Below, piece after piece: positions 13,991 to 37,615 of a stretch of 64,000 nucleotides of DNA. The notes below the pieces were generated by a model that was not told the DNA's origin, ran no database searches, and saw only the letters and a list, made by a program, of their open reading frames with translations. Each line of letters opens with the position of its first letter. Within the stretch, counting starts at the first letter, position 1. This DNA comes from Hypomesus transpacificus. Taxonomy: Eukaryota; Chordata; Actinopteri; Osmeriformes; Osmeridae. The stretch is from NCBI RefSeq assembly GCF_021917145.1, contig NC_061070.1, forward strand, positions 8,294,743 to 8,358,742, read 5' to 3'. The position numbers and the translations under genes are program-made.

Positions 13991-14404
13991 AAATCACAAG
14001 CGTTTGCTTTAGCCAACTCCTTCACCACTACTGTAACGGAGCTAGCTGCCGTAGCTGGAAAATCAAACTTTTCCCGAACCCCGTGGGGAGGAGGGCGACA
14101 ACATCATGGCCACCAACAAAACTAAGCAAGGAATATTCTTGCTCCGGCTTTAACCTATGGATATTTGGCAGCGTTGCCACAACCGCAGAATAGCTTCGCT
14201 CGCATCTTTCTCCGCCGCCATTACTGAACTACTCAAACTAGTGCACGACATTAACGTCATTGTTGTCAGCCAATCCCTCTGTTCGCTGATTGGACCTACA
14301 AAAAATGTGTTTCTGGAAACCGACTTCAAAGTCAAGCTCCCAGACCTGGTACAGAAGCAAAATCCAAATTGAGCGGAAGTACGTAGGAGGGCAGAGCCAG
14401 GCTA
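13991..14404 (+). repeat. Truncated copy 1 of the TAGCCTGG interspersed repeat
   Basis: Matches bases from about 29101 to 29505 of the full copy, through TCCGTTACAG-type and CCCGTGGGGAGGAGGG blocks, to the terminal CCAGGCTA at 14404. The first 150 bp or so of the element are missing; they are replaced abruptly by the right end of the 4-kb transposon. Confidence 0.8.
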
Positions 14405-15090: not shown

Positions 15091-16458
15091 AGAATCAGAA
15101 TCAGAATGGGATTTATTCGCCATGAAAGTTTGCACTGACAAGGAATTTGCTTTGGCAGGAAGGTGCATACAATAAACATATAGGAATCTTAAATTTAAAT
15201 ATGTGGTCTAACTATACTAAAACTAGCAGTAATAAGTGGAATACACTAAAATAAAATAAAGGTGGGCATAAAATAAAATATAAGTTGCCAAATTACAATA
15301 TAAAATACAATATAAAATACAAATATTACAGGAATTGAATGTAGTGCAAAAGTAAAAAGTTTTAAGACATGAAGTCATTAGAGTCAGTGTGAGCTCTTGG
15401 CATTGTTGACGAGGCCAACAGCGGAAGGGAAGAAACTGTGTGTGGCGTGAGGTTTTGGTCCTGATGGACCGCAGCCTTCTGCCGGAGGGGAGTGTTTGAA
15501 ACAAGGAGTGACCAGGGTGGGAGGAGTCCGCCACAATCTTCTTCGCTCGTCTCAGGGTCCTCGAGGTGTGCAGGTCCTCGAGGGAAGGCAGATTGCAGCC
15601 AATCACCTTCTGCAGTGCGGATGATACGCTGCAGCCTGCTCTTTTCCTTGGCAGTGGCAGCAGCGTACCAGATGGTGATGGAGGAGGTGAGGATAGACTC
15701 AATGATGGCTGTGTAGAAGTGCACCATCATTGTCTTTGGCAGGTTGAATTTCTTCAGCTGATTAGGAAGTACATCCTCTGTGTGCTTTCTTGGTGAGGGA
15801 ACTGATGTTCAGTTCCCACTTGAGGTCCTGGGAGAGGACAGTGCCCAGGAAGCGGAAGGACTCCACAGTGTTGACTGGGGAGTCACACAGGGTGATAGGG
15901 GTGAGTGGGGCTGTGTTCTTCCTGAAGTCCACAACCATCTCCACTGTCCTGAGAGCATTGAGCTCTAGGTTGTTCTGGCTGCACCAGGTCACCAGGTTGT
16001 CCGCTTCCCACCTATAGTCGGACTCGTCTCCACCAGAGATGAGCCCAATGAGGGTGGTGTCGTCCGCAAACTTCAGGAGTTTGACGGACGGATGGCTGGA
16101 GGTGCAGCTGTTGGTGTACAGGGAGAAGAGCAGAGGAGAAAGGACGCAGCCCTGGGGAGATCCAGTGCTGATGGACCGGGAATCAGAGACTTGTGTTCCC
16201 AGTTTAACGCACTGCTTCCTGTCAGACAGGAAGTCTGTGATCCACATGCAGGTGGAATCAGGCACGTTCAGCTGGGAGAGCTTGTCCTGAAGCAGAGCGG
16301 GGATGATGGTGTTGAAGGCAGAGCTGAAGTCCACAAACAGGATCCTGGCGTAGGATGCTGGGTAGTCCAGGTGCTGTAGGGTGAAGTGGAGGGCCAAATT
16401 AACTGCATCGTCCATAGACCTGTTGGCTCTGTAGGCAAACTGCAGGGACAAATACATA
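15091..16458 (-). mobile_element. 5'-truncated CR1/Rex1-like LINE with target-site duplication
   Basis: The minus strand encodes a reverse transcriptase in the frame 15762-16457: YRANRSMDDAVNLA, FVDFSSAFNTI, GSPQGCVLSPLLFSLYTN and the catalytic FADDT at about 16058-16076. A frameshift between 15762 and 15730 moves the C-terminal region into another frame (FYTAIIESILTSSITIWY; PSLEDLHTSRTLRRAKKI). The element ends in a CTGATTCTG-type microsatellite. CAATTC flanks it on both sides, at 15085-15090 and 16459-16464. The endonuclease and upstream parts are missing. Family (Rex1/Babar or close CR1 relative) is from recalled motifs. Confidence 0.9.
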
Positions 16459-16528
16459 CAATTCTCTCCTTTCTCGCAATTGGTTGTCAGATTAAACCAA
16501 TCACAAACGTTTCTGCCCTCAGTACAAC

Positions 16529-16573
16529 CAGAGCCTGTTTAAGGATTATTAGCTCTTTATTAGACATTCTCTG
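16529..16573. mobile_element. 45-bp internal-deletion derivative of the CAGAG...CTCTG family
   Basis: The insert starts CAGAGCCTGTTTAAGG and ends TTAGACATTCTCTG, the two ends of the 0.8-0.9-kb element at 8631 and 32203. It is flanked by GTACAAC on both sides (16522-16528 and 16574-16580). The opposite arm of the foldback (near 14781-14793) lacks it and serves as the empty site. Confidence 0.75.
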
Positions 16574-18466: not shown

Positions 18467-19025
18467 TAGCCTGGCTCTGCCCTCCTACGTACTTCCACTC
18501 AATTTGGATTTTGCTTCTGTACTAGGTCTGGGAGCTCGGCTCTGAAGTCGGTTTCCAGAAACAATTTTTTCATAGGTCCAATCAGTGAACAGAGGGAGTG
18601 GCTGAGAACGATGACGTTAATGCTGGCAGTTGTTTGAGTAGTTAAGTAATGGCGGCGGAGAAAGATGCGAGCGAAACTATTCTGCGGTTGTGGCAACGCT
18701 TCCGAATATAGATTAGAGCCGGAGCAAGAACATTCCTTGCTGAGTTTTGTTGGTGGCCATGATGTTGTGGCCCTCCTCCCCACGGGGTTCGGGAAAAGTT
18801 TGATTTTCCAACTACGGCAGCTAGCTCCGTTACAGTAGTGGTGAAGGAGTTGGCTAAGGCGAACTCTCGCGATTGGTTATGGCAAATCAGAGTGGCTCTG
18901 GGCGGATCCAATAGTTTTAAACTTCAGCAGAGGACCCGCCTTCAAGGAAGTTAACGTTTGTCAATCGAGAGATCCCAGACCCTCTGTACAAATGAAATGT
19001 ACGAGGGTCTGTTAGGACCAGGCTA
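18467..19025 (-). mobile_element. TAGCCTGG interspersed element, copy 2 (559 bp, full length)
   Basis: Starts TAGCCTGGCTCTGCCC and ends GGACCAGGCTA, in inverse orientation to the copy at 28949-29505, with near-collinear sequence throughout. Immediate flanks are GTTTAATCA on the left and GTTTAATTA on the right: a 9-bp direct repeat with one mismatch. Terminal inverted repeats are only about 8 bp (TAGCCTGG/CCAGGCTA). No protein is encoded. A 9-bp duplication is typical of Mutator-like elements; that assignment is inference. Confidence 0.8.
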
Positions 19026-19757
19026 GTTTAATTAGTCATTTGCCTGAGAAAGCGACCTCCGTTAGCCAGGCTAGTTTTGTCCGATCACTTGGTCAGGCTA
19101 TTTAAGGGTATTGGGGTCAAGTGGCTTTTGTGCATAGACAAGTGAAACGTAAATGTATTTGTCCAAAGGCCAAGAGTCTCAAAAAGTTAATATCAATCCC
19201 TGCAATCCAGTGACCAGAAATATATGATGACCTGAGCGACACTCCAAGTGTAATAGAACGGGGAGAAGTTCGTCTTTTGCAACCGACATGCGCACTTGAG
19301 GCTGCTTGACAGTTGTGTGACGTAGGGTGATAATTGGTCTATAGGCTACTGTGAATACATGAAAATACCTTCGTGTTCCTAGTCAAATTTCGTCTTGATC
19401 CATAAGAAACAAACTATTGGAAAAGGTTTCGTCCCCGACGTGCTGTCACTGCAAGCTAAATTGAAGCTTTGTAACGTTAGCCAGAGATAGTTAGCGTGGC
19501 CACCTCCTCCAACAGTCAAGAAAGCCTGGGCTCCTATGGCAGGTTTGACCTCTGTGTGACTTCTGTGACGGAGTGTGTAGGCTACACTGTTAGAGAATTA
19601 ACACTCCAGGTGAACACTCCTACATTGTAGCTGTTTGTGTATGTCCAGATGTAACTCATGAATTCATGTATTCATTCATCTGTTCAGCAGTGCATTTATT
19701 ACAGTTGTACATAAATGTGTGTGTGTGTATAGCTTGGAACAGATTCTCGTGAGGTAG
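19026..19757. other. No recognised feature
   Basis: Between the TAGCCTGG element and the PTPN7-like relic I found no exon, RNA gene or repeat I can name. Upstream PTP exons were looked for here and not seen. Confidence 0.35.
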
Positions 19758-20243
19758 TCCTGGTACTCCACCTGGCCTGACCACCAGACCCCAGAATGTT
19801 CAGCCCCTCTGCTGCGATTGTTGGAGGACTACAAAAAGTCCCTCCCACACAACCCTGGACCAATCATCGTCCACTGCAGGTAAGGCCCTTCGTTAGCAAA
19901 TACTTCTCCCTCCCTCTCTCTCCCTCTTATTATCTCTCTCATCCCATCCTCTTTGTCCCCACTCTTCCTCACATTTCACCTCCTCTTTGCCACCCCTCTT
20001 CTTCTTCCTAGGGGTGGTATGGTCCAGACTACTGAGCAGGACCAGTTCCTGTATGCCACCCTGGCCCAGTACAGCACACAGCTGGAGATGCAACCCGCCA
20101 GACCGCAGGAGGACCAAGGGAACAAGGAGAGCCAGGGGAACCCGGAGAACCAGGGGAACAAGGAGAGCCAGGGGAACATGGAGAGCCAGAGGAACCCGGA
20201 GAACCAGGGGAACAAGGAGAGCCAGGGGAACAAGGAAAGCTAG
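19758..20243 (+). pseudogene. PTPN7-like (KIM-type) tyrosine phosphatase relic, P-loop exon missing
   Basis: Two exons of a protein tyrosine phosphatase are visible. The first, ending at 19879, reads WYSTWPDHQTPECSAPLLRL, then NPGPIIVHC, and stops at the catalytic Cys codon (19875-19877) before a GTAAGG donor. The second, from 20012, reads RGGMVQTTEQDQFLYATLAQ, the C-terminal signature of PTPN7, PTPRR and PTPN5-type enzymes. The exon that should lie between them (SAGIGRTG loop) is absent: only 132 bp of pyrimidine-rich intron separates them. The two exons still join in frame. A TAG at 19755-19757 is in frame just upstream unless an acceptor ends there. After the PTP sequence, the frame runs into hexapeptide repeats and stops at 20241-20243. 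It cannot be catalytic. Confidence 0.68.
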
Positions 20244-20430
20244 GGGAACAAGGAGAGCCAGGGGAACATGGAGAGCCAGAGGAACCCGGAGAACCAGGGT
20301 AACATGTAGAGCCAGGGGAACAAGGAGAGCCAGGGGAACAAGGAGAACCAGGAGAACAAGGAGAGCCAGGAGAACAAGGAGAGCCAGGGGAACCAGGAGA
20401 ACAAGGAGAAGAGAAAGAGCAGAGGCAAGG
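20107..20430 (+). repeat. GA-rich minisatellite, 18-bp based (GAGCCAGGGGAACAAGGA)
   Basis: The 18-bp unit and its GGAACCCGGAGAACC and GGAACATGG variants repeat about 18 times, with a longer-range order of several units. One frame gives QGNKES hexapeptides fused to the PTP relic. A second gives collagen-like GEPGEQ triplets but is stopped within the array. A third gives Arg-Gly-Thr-rich sequence. None of these is independent evidence of a gene. Confidence 0.85.
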
Positions 20431-20809
20431 GAGAAGACCGGGAGAACCTGGTCATCAGGTCCGTACAGCTTCAGAAACAGTATGACATCATCACACCACG
20501 CAGACGTCTGGAGCACTGCTCAGCGTGCGGCACAGTGATCAGCTATTCTACTGCCCAAGTCCCAGTTCTCATAAGGTTATCTGTTATCTATGTTCTTTTC
20601 TGAAGCATACATGAGGACATTGGGACAAACCTAAACACAAACAGCTTAGCGATTACAAGGGAGGTATAAACAAAATGCCAATGTTTTGTAGTTTTTTTTA
20701 TTCATGAAAAAAAGATCAAAAGTGATTTAAAAAAAGATCAGAGTGGGAAGTGGCAGGTCCTCGCTGCAGTCAGGTCTGTCACTGACTTGCTTCCAGCAGG
20801 CAGCTCCCT

Positions 20810-23800
20810 CTACTGGTGAGTCATGCAGCTACAGCAGAACACCTTGGCGAGAGCTCCAGAGATCCTGCGGAAGAAGCCTTTAATAGACTTCTTCTTCTGT
20901 TCCTCTTCTCCTGGGATGCTGGAGGACTCTGCAAGATCTGGGCCTGGACATGGAAAACTATCTCACAACAGGACATAACATCACACACAACTTCAGCGCT
21001 TGCAATGAGTGTGTGTGTGTTTGTGTGTGAAATGATGGGAGAGCCAACTAAAGCCTAAATGAACAAATATCCATTCATAATCTCACTTCCACTGCTGAGA
21101 GGAGTAACTGTCTTTTGTTTTTTCTTTTTTCCAGTAACAGCCTTGGTCTTCTTTCTCATCTGGGGTGGAAGGGAGAGTAAAGACAAACATAATTCCTTTA
21201 AATTCTTAAATGTTTTACATTATGTTGACAGGACATAACTACATTAACTGTAACTGTCAAGAGGTTCAAATCCCTCGTGTTTGGATTTGAATGAATAAGT
21301 CTGCGAAATAATTACATCTACTGTTTACTACTCATACATAATGTATTCTACACATGCTTACTTGTAACCCATCTCATCCTTGACTCAGTTAAGGTTAGTT
21401 CTACCCAGTGCCAGTGTGTGTGGAGTTATTTTCAACTTACCCATGTGAACCATCTTTGGAGGCTGGAGAGTTTTTTCTTTCCAAGACGGCCCAGATTGGA
21501 ATGGAAGATCGAAGACCTGTTGAAGGTTTGGGAGGGCACAGAGGGGGATAACATTGAGTTGGAGGATGAGGAGTGGCAGGACTGGGAGGTGGAGGTCTCC
21601 TCAGAAGACCTGTCGATCTTCTCCCAGGCCTTTAACAAGCCTGGGTCTGCAGCTCTCTCTCTCTGCTTCCTGGAGATCCTCAGCTCTTCTGGTGATCTGG
21701 AGGAGAAGGGACACTCTGGCCTTTTCCAAACCAAATCTGTAACATTTCTTCTTGACCTTTCCATCTGCTTTAATCTCCATATGGGTCTCACTGGCCTTTC
21801 CCAAGCCAGAAGAGTGCATCTCAGGTCCGTCATGTAGCTTCACATCCTCACACAGTGAGCTGGAGCTTCCACCGGCTTTTTCCAAGCCAGCAGAGTTCAC
21901 AGCATTCTCCTTCTCAAAATGGACGCTAAGATCGGACACGGCAGGAGCGCGCCAGTCCTCGGCGTGGCGGGAGATTACCTTGGCGATGGTCTCAGCCAGG
22001 CCACAAATGGCTCCCGCTTCTCCGTGGCGAGCAGAGCGGAGCAGGGCTCTGCTGCTGTTAGCGCTGAGCGACAGCTTAGTGTAGGCTGCCTCCAACATGG
22101 CGTCCAGGGCGTCTGTGCCGCTGTAGAAAAGGCTCTGAGGCAGGTGCTCCAGGACGAGGCTGATCCCATCTTGGGTCTGGAGAATCCATCCCACTTCCTT
22201 GAGGAGAGTTGCCTCTAGCCGCGAGAAAGTGGGGGCGTTAGAGGTTGAGGGGGACTCCTGGAGGGCCAGGCGGACCAGAAGACCGTGCAGCAGGTCCCGC
22301 AGGGTCTGGTGGTGCAGGGCACTGGGCCCGGAGGGCTTCCAGACCTTCTTCTGGATGCGAATCTCCAAGGTCTGCAGGGAGGGGGTCTCAGGGGGTCTCG
22401 GGGGCAACCAGGGAAGCACCTGGACCACCTCAGGGAGACAAGAAGCTCCATCATATTTCCCTTCTCCCTTGGTATTTATTTGCCTGGCAATGTTGATGCT
22501 TATGGTCAGACTATCTGACATTTTTTCCTCTTCATGGAAATCATAAACATAATCAACATTGTCGTTGTCAGGGACAATTATATCAGCCTTCTCAGACGGG
22601 CCTACTTCAAGGTTAGTGAAACTTGAACTCAACTCTGGGTCGAGACTTCCTGTTGTGCCTTCAGAGGAGGAGCTGCTAAGATTAGCGATCCTGGCCATGA
22701 CCTCAGCATCAAGGCCTGGCACAAAAAAACACACTCACACTTTTAAGTATCCTTGTATTACTAGAGCTATTACCTATACATTTCTTAAAACAGTATTAAT
22801 ATTATAGTTCTTAACTATACATACACTGTCATTCAGCAGTACTGTAACACTTACAACTCTGTATTATATTAACATAGTTATAAACTCCAGAGGTCTTATA
22901 CCCCAAAAGGTTAAGGAACATTTCACAAGCAGGATTTTTTGTAACATGTAAAACACAGCCATTTCATAACAGCAATATGGCGACATGGTGAAACATTCTA
23001 TTTCTAAAGGGCATTCCATTTAATGCATTCTATCATTTGTACTTATTTTGTAACAGTGTCCTCAGTGTTACTAGTTAGGCTACCTGAACACCTGAAAATT
23101 CCCTTTGGGGTCAATATATTGAATTGAGTAAAAGATTTCTCTACCTTTGTTGACAATGGCCATTACTTTTTCTGGGTCATTGCAGGAACACTGAAGGACA
23201 CCTCCCACTTTGAGGGTCAACACCTCAGAAATGGCCTCTGGTGCCCTCCTCTGGTCCTGGCTGACAGAGGAAGATGGTCGGCTCCTACCCACAGTCCCTT
23301 GGGTGGGGCCCAGCATCCCGCAGTAGGACCCTTCCAGAGACGTGCTGTCGCTGCTGTCACTGCTCTCCCAATATACATCCCTGATGGAGGTCCTGTCCTT
23401 TTTACACATCCATTCGAGGTGGTCGTTCACCAGGACACATTCGTCCGGAAGCGAGTTGGTCAGGGCAAGGAAGTTTTCCATCAGTTTCTTAAAAGCCAAG
23501 TGGATGAAATTGTGCAGCATTGGAGTGAAGAGCTCCCAGTCCAGGTGCTGCTTGGCCTCCGGTTTCTGGACGTTGGGCTTGGAGCGGCAGCGGCGTGACG
23601 AGGGGAGTCGTCCCACCAGCGTGTCCAGGAGCAGCTCATAGAGGCGGTCGATCAGCTACATGGAGAAGCGCTGGATCCTCGTCTGCAACATCCTGGTACA
23701 CATGTTGTGAGAGGCCAGCAGGCGGCCCAGGTCGTACTCAGCCTGGTCCAACAACCCGACGGAGGAGCCTCCTTTGTCTTTTTCGCAGTCTTCATCATTG

Positions 23801-26573
23801 GAGACTGATCTGGAGGCCGAGTAGGCCATCCGCACGACGGTGTCCAGCATTTTGTGAGCCGTGAGGTTGAGGTGGCTGTTTGCCTTGCTCCTGGGGCTAG
23901 GGCTCCTGGGGCTAGAGCCCCTGGGGCTAGGGCTCTTGGGGCTAGGGCTACTGGAGGCTGACCTGGCCTCCTCCTTCTGCTGCTCCTCTTCCTCCTCCTC
24001 CTCGTCGCTAGCCGAGCTGCACTCCTCCTCTGATCTCCTCCTGCTGGGTGCAGAAAAGGAAGCTTTCCTGACACGAAAGTGTGCAGGCCTCCTTCTCCTC
24101 TTTTCCCTTGACCCAGTTCCCCAGCAGCTCTCCCTGGCTGCGGCTCCTCCTGCTGCTCCTCCCGCTGCTGACCCCCTGGTTCCTCCTCTGTAGGGCCTTC
24201 ACCTCCTCCGTAACCTGGCTGAGCAGGGACTCGCTCACGCACTCCACTAACAGGGTGAAGTCATTACTGCGTGGCTGCAGGAAGGCCACCTCTCCTTCTG
24301 TAATCATCTCCGCAGCTGCGCTGAAGTTCTCCAGGACGAGGTGGATGATGTTGCAGGCACTGGAGATGTTCTGGAGCAGGGAGTCTGTGTCGGTGTCTTG
24401 GGGCTGGTTCAGGGAAGAGCGTCTTTCTCTGGCCACCATCCCCTGGAGGATACCCCCCACCACCCTCACCAGCTCCAGCTTCTCCTCTGTGGTGAAAACG
24501 CCCTGTCTCTGGAAGAGGGCGTGGTGGGCCAGGATACCAGAGAGGCTCTTCGTCTGGGTGGAGGGGTTGTGAGGCTCGCTATCGCAGCTGACGCGTCCAA
24601 TGCTGCTGGCCGAGCTGCGGCCTGAGCCGGTCGATACCGCTGTCACACAGCTGGGCCTGGGAGATGTCATAGCCTTTTCCATCTCCTAGGCCTCCGCCAC
24701 ACTGCCAATGAAGAACGACGCCATCTTCTCAGCCTTCTTTTTCTCCCTGTGGAAGATGGCCTCTGACGTGTTGGTGTTGGCAGACAACAGGGGCCGCGGG
24801 GGCATCCGCTCGTTGACGGCGTCAGTATGGATGTCGGCGAGGACCCGGATTTTGTCCTTGGCGTCCTGCCAGGTGTTCAGGATCAGGTCCTCAGAGATAC
24901 TTGTCAAGTAGAATTCAGACAAGGAACTGCCCGGGTGGTGAAGCACCAACTCGTCCATCACCTTGTCCATGGCCGAGTCACAGAGCTCCTCTACGATGGC
25001 AGACAGCTTTGCCTCTTTCCTGTCCTCATCTCTCGCCATCACTCCCTTCAACTTGGCGATGACCTCTGCCACAGTGAGGGATGCCGTGGCGAGGATATCC
25101 TCCTCTGTGAACCTACTGGGGTGAAGGGGTGTTGGGGGCATCTCGCTCGATAGCCTGTCCTGTGGCCTGGATCCTAGCCCGCTTTCCAGCAGGGGGTGGG
25201 ACTTCTCTGAGATGATATCCTCGGGGACATCAGGCTGGGCTGAGCCCTGAGAAGAGGCCCGGTCCTTGGACGAAGGAGGAGACGAACAAGACCTGTTCCT
25301 TGTGGAGATGCTGCTGCTGTGGGAGGTAGCGGCAGACAGAGGGTCTTGGTGGAGGTGAAGGACCTGGTAAAGGGCCATGGCGGGCAGAACCCCATCATTG
25401 GCCACCTGGAGAACCCACTCCATCATCTCCTCTGAGCGCTTCTGCAGCTCAGCGATGCTCTTGTTCTAAGAGAGAGGGTGAGAGGGGGAAGAGACAGAAA
25501 AGGATGGAGAGAGAGAGGAGAGAAAAAAGGCAGCGTGAAAAAAGGGGAGAAAGTTAAATCACAGTACAGATACACATAGTTATTGTCAAGCTGAGTAAAA
25601 AAATATTTTGATTTAGAAACTAAACATTTTATCTACCTTTCTCAATAGGACCTTTTTGACCAGTCTCCACTGACTGTAACAAGAACAAGAACGGATGTGT
25701 TACGGACTCTCTCTACAGTACAATGACAACTAACGACACATCTTAACATTGTGTTCAACAGGACAGTAGCCTAAAGGGGACGTTAACAGGGACACTCACG
25801 GGTGGGACATCATGGCCTCTGACACTGGAATTTCATCCCGCGTCATTGGTTCCTCTGGGCGGGATGGGATTTGGATTGGTGGAAGAACACCTACATGTCG
25901 AGGATTGTCACAGTGTGATTGGTGGATCCCTCTCTCTTGATAGAAAGTGATAATTCAATCATGAATGTTGTACTTTTGATACATTAATAAACCAATTACT
26001 CACGGTAGCTGGTCTGGGACATGGGAGGCATCTTCACACATGTACCACTGATCTGCAGGCAAGACAAACGCAAAGGCAAAGAAACAGAAAGTTATCAGAG
26101 TTGTTGGAGACATGGAGGTAGATTGAGTTGAGGGGAGTAAGTGGTGTCTGTAGTACTCAGTGAGGGGATGAGGGCCGTTTACTCACCATCCTGCCTGGTT
26201 CTGACAGTTTCCCGGCCAGGTCGGAATCTCGTTCTGCTGCTGGCGTACGGGCACCAGTGCCCACATCAGCCCTGCAGCCCTTGAAAAACACACCATGTAA
26301 ACACACATACATACACATACATACAAACAAACAAGGGGCGGCGGGGTGGGTGGGTGGGACTGAGGTCACAATTAGCAGTAAAACACAGCAAGAGAGAGAG
26401 AGAGGTGCCTCGAACAGAAATGATTTTACAGTAACTTTTGATATGACTTGGAAATATGACTAGATCTACCATATGTATCAAGTTAAGTCACATTGTTAAA
26501 CACAACACTTAAAACTCACATAATTGAAATTCTAAATAATCTAAAGAACCAAACGTGTGTTTTCATCGTTTTA

Positions 26574-26612
<39 letters not shown>

Positions 26613-26726
26613 ACCTGTCATTATATATATATATATCTATGGTTTTAGCTACAAGATAGATAACACACTTACCTTCTGTTTAGGCCTCCGTTCTTTTAGT
26701 CTTTCCTGTTTTGGGATTTCATCCAT
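20810..26726 (-). pseudogene. Unrecognised nine-exon gene, disrupted by two TAG codons and two frameshifts
   Basis: Exons (minus): 26673-26726 (MDEIPKQERL start), 26187-26279, 26004-26052, 25800-25890, 25637-25673, 23145-25465, 21441-22715, 21087-21159 and 20810-20943. Every border is GT-AG and phases agree, except inside the two long exons. The 2321-nt exon has in-frame TAG at 24686-24688 and 23656-23658, plus a frameshift at about 24100-24150. The 1275-nt exon shifts frame at about 21600-21830. Without these lesions the product would be near 1,370 residues. It is Ser-rich, with helical segments (LSAIVEELCDSAMDKVMDEL), an acidic run (seven Glu), SPSPKSPSPRGSSPR repeats, a KKKKQK cluster and a C-terminus KGFFRRISGALAKVFCCSC that could be acylated. 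I do not recognise the family. Both stops replace a plausible CAG by C-to-T change, which fits recent inactivation; assembly error or polymorphism is the alternative. Confidence 0.72.
26577..26636. repeat. (AT)n microsatellite, two runs
   Basis: AT dinucleotide runs at about 26577-26609 and 26621-26636 lie in the first intron of the unrecognised gene. Confidence 0.9.
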
Positions 26727-26811
26727 GTTTTACACTCAGTAAGGATGACAAACTCTTTCAAACGACTCCTTTGCCTTGTGATGAACATTCCTTTCATCAC
26801 TGACAGATTTG

Positions 26812-27593
26812 GGCTGTGTTCGAAATGTCTTAAAATGCGTCCTTCCTTCCTTCCTTCCTTCCTTTTAAGACAGCGAGGTCTGTTCGAAATGTCTTAAATC
26901 TTCTCTTCCTGTCTAATAAGATACCTTGAAATACGTCACATAACGGTCATTTTTTAAGAGAGCATCTGAGCTGCCTTGCTGTCTTAATCGCAGCACGTAT
27001 TACCCATAACTCTGTGCGCGGGGTTACCGTGAGCAACAAGTTAAACAGAATCCTTTGACCGCCATTGCTCTAAGTTTTTACAATTCATATTTCAGCTAAA
27101 CGGTACTTGTAAATCAGCATCTGAATAAAAATGTATCGAGAAATGGGCAGTGTAGTTACTGAAAATGTACTTATTTTATTGATAACACTCCTAATTTGTA
27201 AATTTGCTCCGACTTTTCGATAACGTACAGTACCTAGCATCGCAGTGCAGTGCAGACACTAGCTAGTTGCTGCGTTTTATCATTATCCTATCAAATGAGT
27301 GAAATACAAACACAAATGTTATGAGCTATTGAGCCTATATCTAACACAAGTTTAAATACAGCTTAACTTGACTTAGTGTGACAATAAACTCAATGCAATT
27401 GACTGCCGTCTGACAAAGTGCGCTAGTGCGAGCACACAAGTACACGCAGCGCGATGACGTACATCCTGTCTTAATAGGCTGTTCGAAACAACGGTTTTTA
27501 AGATACCTTACCCCGAAGAGAGCTGTCTCGTTAGACACCTGTCTAGTAAAACATCAAGGATTAAGACAGCTGTCTAAGTTTTCGAACACAGCC
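26812..27593. mobile_element. Inverted-repeat element of 0.78 kb just upstream of the unrecognised gene
   Basis: GGCTGTGTTCGAAA at the left end is mirrored by TTCGAACACAGCC at the right end. A GTTCGAAATGTCTTAA block occurs twice near the left end and inverted forms occur near the right. A (TTCC)n run sits at 26841-26862. No protein or certain target duplication was found. Its left end is about 85 bp upstream of the ATG at 26726, so it occupies the promoter position of that gene. Confidence 0.65.
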
Positions 27594-27936
27594 TCGATTT
27601 TGCAATTCGTTTTTATATAATTTGGTAAAGTGCGTCACAATCCCTTTATGCCCTGTGACGTCATCGTGTCTAAATAGTGCGGCATCTTTTCCAAAACAAT
27701 GGCCCGCCGTTTTAGACAAAAGGGTACGGATTGGGATGTTTTTAAATAACTACTCGCGGTTTTTTTTTCGCACTTTACTCCAATTGGTAGGGACATTTTT
27801 GACAGTGTGAATTGTACAGCGATTCTACGTACTGCACCCAGTGCTATCCAAATACTACTTTCATGTAATGAACCACACAGTGAGGAATCAGCTTTGCTGT
27901 AAAAATAAAAAATAAAGACAAAATCTGTATTGACAC

Positions 27937-28948: not shown

Positions 28949-29505
28949 TAGCCTGGTCCTAACCAGACCCTCGTACATTTCATTTGTACAGAGGGTCTGG
29001 GATCGCTCCATTGACAAACGTTAACTTCCTTGAAGGCGGGTCCTCTGTTGAAGTTTAAAACTATTGGATCTGCCCAGAGCCACTCTGATTTGACATAACC
29101 AATCGCAAGCGTTCGCCTTAGCCAACTCCTTCACCACTACTGTAACGGAGCTAGCTGCCGTAGCTGGAAAATCAAACTTTTCCCGAACCCCGTGGGGAGG
29201 AGGGCCACAACATCATGACCACCAACAAAACTCAGCAAGGAATGTTCTTACTCCGGCTTTAACCTATGGATATTCGGCAGCGTTGCCACAACTGCAGAAT
29301 AGCTTTGCTCGCATCTTTGTTACTGAACTGCTCAAACTAGTGCACAACATTAACGTCATCGTTCTCAGCCACTCCCTCTGTTCGCTGATTGGACCTACAA
29401 AAAAAGGTGTATCTGAAAACCGACTTCAAAGTCAAGCTCCCAGACCTAGTACAGAAGCAAAATCCAAATTGAGCAGAAGTACGTAGGACGGGCAGAGCCA
29501 GGCTA
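28949..29505 (+). mobile_element. TAGCCTGG interspersed element, copy 3 (557 bp, full length)
   Basis: Reference copy of the family also found at 13991-14404 and 18467-19025. It begins TAGCCTGGTCCTAACC and ends GGCAGAGCCAGGCTA. Flanks are CAATTTTTTG and CATTTTTTTG, a near-perfect 10-bp direct repeat consistent with a 9-10-bp target duplication. It is non-coding. Confidence 0.8.
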
Positions 29506-31984: not shown

Positions 31985-32063
31985 ATCGAATCAGCCGGGA
32001 ATCGAACCAACCACCTCCTGATTAATAACCCGACTCCCTGACCGCTGAGCCATCTGACTCCCC
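31985..32063 (-). mobile_element. tRNA-like head of a SINE
   Basis: On the minus strand it reads GGAGTCAGATGGCTCAGCGG (A-box-like), then TTATTAATCAGGAGG, then GGTTCGATTCC (B box). Box spacing fits an internal RNA polymerase III promoter. There is no cloverleaf-compatible 3' half, so it is a SINE head and not a tRNA gene. Related copies lie at 13180-13370 and 42105-42240. Confidence 0.7.
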
Positions 32064-36439: not shown

Positions 36440-37615
36440 GGCCAAACCTTATCTCAGGGGGTGGACACCGATCTGCGCATGGGGTGGCACTGGGTATTCC
36501 TCTTGTGGGTGTCTGGATGGAACGTGCACTGATTAGCGCACAAGCTACAGATGCCTTGAAATGCAGAAGATCCTTGTTTTCCAAACCAGACATTCTGTAG
36601 AGGTACCAGGCAACAGTGGTCACATCCAAGAAGTGAAACCTGACATTCTGTAGAGGTGCCAGGCAACAGTGGTCACATCCAAGAAGTGAAAGAAGACTCG
36701 GATGTACCACCATTTGTTTTGCAGCTGAGAGGATACATTGTGACACACTGATCCATGAGATCTACTCCTCCCAGACGCTGATTGTACAGTTTAGAAGAAA
36801 ACGGCCTTTGGATGTTGAGAGTCTTATTATCTTTCTTGCTCCATGTCTGGGCCTAATCTGGTGGGGACTGGCCAATGCAAGAAGAGACCACGCGGATCAC
36901 TGAACTATCAAGCCAATGTGCGACTGAGCTTTTCACCGATGCTGACAACAGAGCAAGCTCCTCTTCCTTCTGTTATGAGTTGCTTTTCGCTCTTCAGCTT
37001 CAGTTGCGCTCCATGCAGCCTGTCGATTCTGCATGTGCCAGTGTCATAGATGCCCTGTTGTTGCAATGCCTGAGTGAGTGGAATGGTGGAGAAGAAGTTG
37101 TCAAGGAACATGTGATTCTGTAAATGTAATGAAATGTAAATGTGATTATTTTGCTGTACTTCATCACAGAGGCGCATGACTACTTCTGCATTCATTGCCA
37201 ACTGACTGACCTGAGCCTGCCCAGCTAAACCCTGATACCCTTCAAAACTATATGTATCCAGAGGACCCTGCTCTCACCCACACTTTCACACCCCAACGTT
37301 TGGGTTTTGGGGGATAAACAGCCTGAGAGACAGGCAGCCCTTGAAGGGAATAATCTGCTCATCAATTGATAACAATTATTCTGGATAGACTGCTGAATGG
37401 AAGGTTTTCTTGAGTGCATCTAACACTGGTCTGATTTTGAAGAACATATCAGCATTTTCTGTCTCCTGTGTGTAATTATTAACAAAGTGAATGCACCTTA
37501 GAATCTGCTCAAATCTGTTCACTGGCATGGCATTTGCTATCAAATCACGATGAAAGCCCATCCTCTGATGACCAGTACATTCCTGATCTTGGGTATTGAG
37601 GTATGACATTACCAT
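36440..37615 (-). pseudogene. piggyBac transposase remnant 3 (minus strand)
   Basis: On the minus strand, motifs appear in order: MPVNRFEQILRCIHFVNN (about 37510), a PFKGCLSLRQFIP-like region near 37325 (in pieces), FLDNFFSTIPLTQALQQQGI (about 37080), RIDRLHGAQLKLKSEKQL (about 37010), GGVDLMDQCV (about 36775) and KWWYIRVFFHFLD (about 36710, shifted frame). The DNFFS and VDLMDQ segments correspond to the second and third catalytic regions. Indels and a 53-bp local duplication (36591-36643 repeated at 36644-36696) break it. It is a different lineage from remnants 1 and 2 (PGBD-like RLHGAQ motif). Confidence 0.88.

Follow-up and report, generated by a model that had tools for sequence, protein, structure and literature searches.

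The locus at positions 20810 to 26726 of the window, by which we mean the whole stretch of 64,000 nucleotides analysed here, raises the question of what a gene is whose splice sites are all in place and whose reading frame is broken in four places. We addressed it by re-modelling the gene, comparing it with its relatives in the same genome and weighing the explanations against each other.

The gene model and its reading frame

The original prediction, a nine-exon gene on the minus strand running from 26726 to 20810 with GT-AG borders, was borne out on re-modelling. The claimed agreement of phases at all junctions holds as well, provided that two frame changes are allowed, one in each of the two long exons: exon 6 is entered in frame 0 and left in frame 1, and exon 7 is entered in frame 2 and left in frame 0. 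A scan of codon preference, with the gene itself as training set, favoured a single frame in each scanned segment, 0 then 1 in exon 6 and 2 then 0 in exon 7, with switches near 24034-24028 and 21718-21647. The gene and its surroundings comprise the following features.

26673..26726, minus strand: exon 1, with the ATG at 26726; its peptide is 83-100% identical across the six close copies
26187..26279, minus strand: exon 2, phase 0-0; found in L009, L013 and L014
26004..26052, minus strand: exon 3; whole in L009, joined to exon 4 through a deletion in L010-L014
25800..25890, minus strand: exon 4; gene model and paralogue alignment
25637..25673, minus strand: exon 5; gene model and paralogue alignment
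23145..25465, minus strand: exon 6, 2321 nt, holding TAG1, TAG2 and frameshift 1; model, codon preference and alignment
21441..22715, minus strand: exon 7, 1275 nt, holding frameshift 2; model, codon preference and alignment
21087..21159, minus strand: exon 8; gene model and paralogue alignment
20810..20943, minus strand: exon 9, carrying the final stop and a lysine-rich, cysteine-containing amphipathic segment; model and tail comparison
20697..20702, minus strand: AATAAA polyadenylation-type signal, starting at 20702; from sequence
19364..27936, minus strand: duplicated unit common to the close copies, approximate extent, bounded by the 9.9-kb stretches compared

The duplicated unit also contains a convergent open reading frame on the plus strand (19884-20603), which starts MVQTTEQ and carries an 18-nt repeat. 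This frame is present in six of the seven close copies, being absent from the L013 stretch, and in the window copy it has a stop within the repeat.

Close copies in the same genome

Relatives were sought in the genome itself (437 Mb, 376 contigs), with the first 259 residues of exon 6 as query. This search returned 49 matches, which we grouped by hand into 30 places, 29 of them besides the window: seven close copies (the window copy included), 14 copies of a second subfamily and nine others. Copies were compared over 9.9 kb at 20 places and over 1.5 kb at one further place (L029). The six close copies other than the window copy, with 88-93% protein identity, are located as follows.

Contig C158: L009, the nearest copy, 96.4% identical to the window copy in exon 6
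Contig C20: L010 and L011, a tandem pair with 14.6 kb between them
Contig C18: L012
Contig C23: L013 and L014

L010 and L011 are uninterrupted from ATG to stop, at 1314 and 1311 residues, respectively. L009 is broken in a way of its own, with two 7-nt deletions in exon 6 and the 5' half of exon 7 replaced. The remaining three each carry a single frame lesion in exon 6, in every case a one-base change of homopolymer length, which in L014 adjoins a 45-nt loss from a 15-nt repeat. Since the lesions are of this kind and the readable codons of exons 6 and 7 (1166-1183) include no stop, L012, L013 and L014 may be open genes carrying sequencing errors.

The exon structure of the close copies differs at the 5' end. 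No exon 2 sequence aligned in L010-L012, and loss of this exon preserves the frame. Exons 3 and 4 are fused in L010-L014, where one common deletion took out the intron between them; the fusion is in frame in L010 and L011. At the L010 locus there are N bases, and an additional partial copy, holding part of exon 6, lies downstream of L010 (L010 8543-9900).

The gene model is recovered beyond chance in these relatives. A tblastn search with the exon peptides of the window copy found all nine exons in L009 (exons 6 and 7 partially) and seven or eight of them in L010-L014; in the second subfamily, every one of the 14 copies compared had exons 6, 7 and 9.

Four lesions private to the window copy

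The lesions in exon 6 were read from an alignment of the window copy with all six close copies, and both stops and both deletions occur in the window copy only (0 of 6 others).

24686..24688, minus strand: TAG1; GAG in 6 of 6 close copies
23656..23658, minus strand: TAG2; GAG in 6 of 6 close copies
24040..24041, minus strand: frameshift 1, a private 5-nt deletion in a GAG-rich repeat, placement ambiguous; exon-6 alignment
21717..21718, minus strand: frameshift 2, a private 2-nt deletion in an AG run; exon-7 alignment

The two TAG codons had been called correctly and start at 24688 and 23658. Their proposed origin by C-to-T change from CAG proved wrong, as the GAG of the six closest copies makes each a G>T change. 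Likewise, the frameshifts had been taken for extra bases, and the alignments show deletions of 5 and 2 nt; the effect on the frame had been read correctly, because a loss of 5 or 2 nt shifts the frame like one added base. As to location, the second frameshift, expected at 21600-21830, does lie there (gap at 21718/21717), and the first, expected at 24100-24150, does not (gap at 24041/24040). This latter gap is about 6 nt outside the codon-preference estimate.

Age of the loss and constraint on the family

In a tree of exon 6 the window copy pairs with L009, and its terminal branch measures 0.0133 substitutions per site. Under assumed indel rates (0.12 per substitution, 0.8 of them frameshifting), four lesions fit a neutral divergence of about 0.75%, with a range of 0.2-1.9%. 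The absence of these lesions from the six close copies, together with the short branch and the small neutral divergence, supports a very recent loss, as had been suggested. The sign of recency cited for it, intact splice sites, is a weak one, given that all 32 splice-site bases survive 1% divergence with a probability of 0.70.

Had the whole terminal branch been neutral, 7.1 lesions would be expected where four are seen (P(≤4) = 0.16). Of the private substitutions of the window copy over 884 codons, 37.5 are nonsynonymous and 20.5 synonymous, which gives a dN/dS of 0.64; on other branches the ratio runs from 0.27 (L013) to 1.4 (L012), from small counts. Because of the lesion shortfall and the private ratio, the window copy was probably constrained for part of this branch. 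Pairwise dN/dS lies between 0.47 and 0.88 throughout the seven close copies (21 pairs). The median in the second subfamily is 0.57 (54 pairs of 11 open copies, the near-identical L022/L023 pair excluded), and L010 against three open second-subfamily copies gives 0.67-0.72. Judged by these ratios, the genes of the family look coding and weakly constrained.

A repeat at the expected start site

The region upstream of exon 1 contains two further features.

26812..27596, minus strand: 785-bp insertion private to the window copy, a high-copy repeat whose ends resemble inverted repeats; alignment and genome search
27610..27617, minus strand: TATAAAAA, 105-107 nt from the ATG in the six other copies and 891 nt in the window copy

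The motif TATAAAAA, which we call a TATA box, is kept in all seven close copies. The insertion follows the start of this motif by 22 nt and precedes the ATG by about 84 nt; it is missing from the six other close copies (five of which are in the multiple alignment). Its ends are inverted-repeat-like (GGCTGTGTTCGAAA), and no clear target duplication was found by eye. A genome search gave at least 43 matches, including the window's own, with 40 scored of 1108 first-look candidates; among the matches scored, the best other copies are 98% identical.

We speculate that this repeat, having inserted where transcription would be expected to begin, may have cut expression of the window copy, and that the coding frame would have decayed afterwards. 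Silencing by the insertion is a guess, and the order of events is presumed. Since the repeat is private to the window copy, has many copies in the genome, some up to 98% identical, and sits at the expected start site, a young mobile element would be an economical trigger. As a counterpoint, a start site within the repeat could still drive transcription. Moreover, L009 is dead without the insertion, so an insertion is not required for decay.

The second subfamily and other relatives

The second subfamily comprises L015-L028 (n = 14), on contigs C21, C9, C1, C143 and C366, and identity to L010 over exon 6 is 55-58% in the ten of its copies that were aligned there. Exon 6 is open with the expected exit phase in 11 of the 14. 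Exon 7 is open in 12 of them; L028 is broken, the exon 7 start in L021 is only estimated, and L019 has lost the acceptor of exon 7. Counting copies in which exons 6 and 7 are both open with the acceptor present, we obtained 12 of 21 (2 of the 7 close copies and 10 of the 14 in the second subfamily); full nine-exon models cover the close copies. In L015-L027, exon 7 contains a repeat of about 31 residues (SAGLEKAGGSSSPF...), variable in copy number and in frame where the copy is open.

Several further observations concern individual relatives. L021 and L024 have in common a one-base deletion early in exon 6, which was therefore either inherited through duplication or is seen twice on allelic contigs. 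L022 and L023, about 58 kb apart on C21, have one synonymous difference in exon 6 and represent either a very recent duplication or assembly doubling. L029 (contig C11, 8412400-8413900), about 93 kb from the window gene on the same contig, is a third type of member with a shorter exon 6 that lacks the middle part; it is a type to which four matches near 16.2 Mb on C23 may belong.

Searches for a known protein family

The original prediction did not recognise the protein family, and this stands against Pfam and PDB. Seven pieces of the window protein had no Pfam match at E up to 1, and the full read-through with X at the lesions gave one chance-level match below the cutoff (E 0.21). Weak matches appeared in single members among 12 exon-6 sequences (E 0.15-0.49), and one (E 0.52) among five second-subfamily exons. 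Single-sequence and profile searches of PDB returned chance-level matches (best E 0.37). No relative of one exon-6 piece was found in viral_contigs, and none of one exon-7 piece in genome_contigs; a literature search found nothing on the family, which has no name to search by. The accompanying idea of a single-copy gene whose intact orthologue must be sought in other fish did not hold, because open multi-copy relatives exist in the same genome.

All 21 copies have the C-terminal tail, with its lysine run, its FFR-centred helix and its cysteines. In six versions, the hydrophobic moment of the tail helix falls at the 98.4-100th percentile of 18-mers of the window protein; in L010 and L011 there is a proline within the helix. 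As a tentative reading of sequence features, one that we hold at well under even odds, the intact proteins could be helical, Ser/Glu-rich peripheral membrane proteins tethered by the C-terminal lysine-rich amphipathic segment and acylated cysteines. Single-sequence AlphaFold models had low confidence (pLDDT 48.7 and 36.0) and gave no structural support for the membrane reading. An internal repeat between two segments of exon 6 was discarded, as its score was reached by 756 of 2000 shuffles.

Genomic setting

Gene order in the window is TRMT2B, SCD, WNT8 and then the broken gene, all on one strand. WNT8 matches Wnt-8 structures, SCD matches the Pfam desaturase model, and the second exon of TRMT2B matches a tRNA uracil methyltransferase model. 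A statement in PMC3112091 has WNT8B typically adjoining SCD1 in the tetrapods examined there.

The broken gene is flanked by the arms of an inverted repeat (18708-19011 and 28964-29267, 96% complementary), to which a third copy near 13992-14209 is related. Elsewhere in the window there are a reverse transcriptase (RVT_1) fragment at 15762-16538 and a DDE transposase (DDE_Tnp_1_7) fragment at 36908-37273, both on the minus strand. ARAGORN called a tRNA-Asn (att) at 31987-32060 on the minus strand, possibly a tRNA-derived repeat; Rfam had no match at its gathering score, at this tRNA-Asn or otherwise.

Interpretation

Taken together, the window gene is very probably a recently dead duplicated (unprocessed) pseudogene of a multi-copy protein-coding family with open members elsewhere in the genome. 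The introns of the parent family are kept and the exon borders align with those of the close copies; the coding frame is disabled by two stops and two frameshifts; and intact paralogues, L010 and L011, open over the modelled coding sequence, exist in the same genome. The best reading of the family's evolution is birth-and-death.

The alternative that survives best, though unlikely, is a null allele of a locus at which an intact allele also segregates, which the few and recent lesions would suit. However, the nearest copy, L009, lies on another contig and is itself broken, so no intact allele was seen in the one assembly.

Next in order, and rather improbable, is an intact gene into which assembly or base calling introduced errors. 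The one-base homopolymer lesions of L012-L014 resemble sequencing errors, so that the assembly may contain some. The claim that the neighbouring genes are free of errors holds for SCD, TRMT2B and the part of WNT8 that was modelled, whose 3492 coding nt contain neither stop nor frameshift, and the chance of all four lesions falling in the broken gene rather than in these three intact neighbours is 0.086, which is weak evidence. What disfavours base-calling errors is the nature of the lesions in the window copy: two G>T transversions and deletions of 5 and 2 nt with no homopolymer change, besides the private 785-bp repeat, are not usual errors.

We consider it very improbable that the broken copy works as RNA, serving the family through a non-coding or regulatory transcript. 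Retention of the splice sites, TATAAAAA and AATAAA would fit such a role, but signals of this sort often survive a divergence this small, and TATAAAAA has been parted from the exons by the insertion.

Least credible of the readings is a functional gene whose lesions are removed by the splicing of additional introns that went unrecognised. Phase-fitting GT-AG pairs are available for every lesion, with best scores of 5.8 for TAG1 (453 nt), 1.7 for TAG2, 3.0 for frameshift 1 and 3.2 for frameshift 2 (alternatively 3.1 for a 103-nt pair at 21791/21688), where the junctions of the model score 0.9-9.7; we rejected it on coding score and read-through paralogues, since three of the candidates, those at TAG1, TAG2 and frameshift 1, would excise coding-scoring sequence and the reading frame of close copies continues across the lesion sites (L010 and L011 for exon 6, L010-L014 for exon 7). 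A unitary pseudogene is contradicted by the open paralogues in the same genome, whose function is putative, and a processed one by the eight introns present.

With the dead duplicate as the preferred reading, the pseudogene itself is ordinary, if well documented here, and the family is the part worth following. Its value is that of a comparison set: seven close copies in one genome, two of them uninterrupted and one with a mobile element beside the TATA box, in which dating can test the order "promoter hit first, frame decay later". For the open family, a multi-copy set of vertebrate genes, Pfam and PDB gave no relative above cutoff. More doubtfully, we picture an undescribed fish family at some thirty places, fast-evolving, with a repeat unit of about 31 residues that varies in number without breaking the frame and with an amphipathic, cysteine-bearing tail that is conserved; the family would turn over by duplication and by young-transposon silencing at the start site and could be a germline or conflict-driven membrane scaffold.

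Comparison with known systems

FSIP2 and the A-kinase anchoring fibrous-sheath proteins were considered as possible kin of the window protein. Like them, it is long, helix-rich and Ser/Glu-rich and has some RII-like helix patterns; a search with an RII-like motif gave seven overlapping matches, against a mean of 1.7 and a maximum of 7 in 500 shuffles. Unlike them, it has no Pfam family match (E up to 1) and no PDB relative. No support was found for the FSIP2/AKAP idea, as Pfam, which may hold no FSIP2 model, showed no such family in the pieces or the read-through.

In salmonid ohnologs, according to statements in PMC8042706, promoter insertions of transposable elements are linked to expression loss of duplicates. 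The window copy differs from the cases described there in that it does not belong to a known whole-genome-duplication pair and is known here from sequence alone; it resembles them in that, among the seven close copies, only this decayed one has a repeat in its promoter region. Compared with the duplicated pseudogenes of birth-and-death families, the present family stands apart in having no above-cutoff Pfam or PDB match, and the window copy agrees with them in its retained introns, its private disabling changes and its open paralogues.
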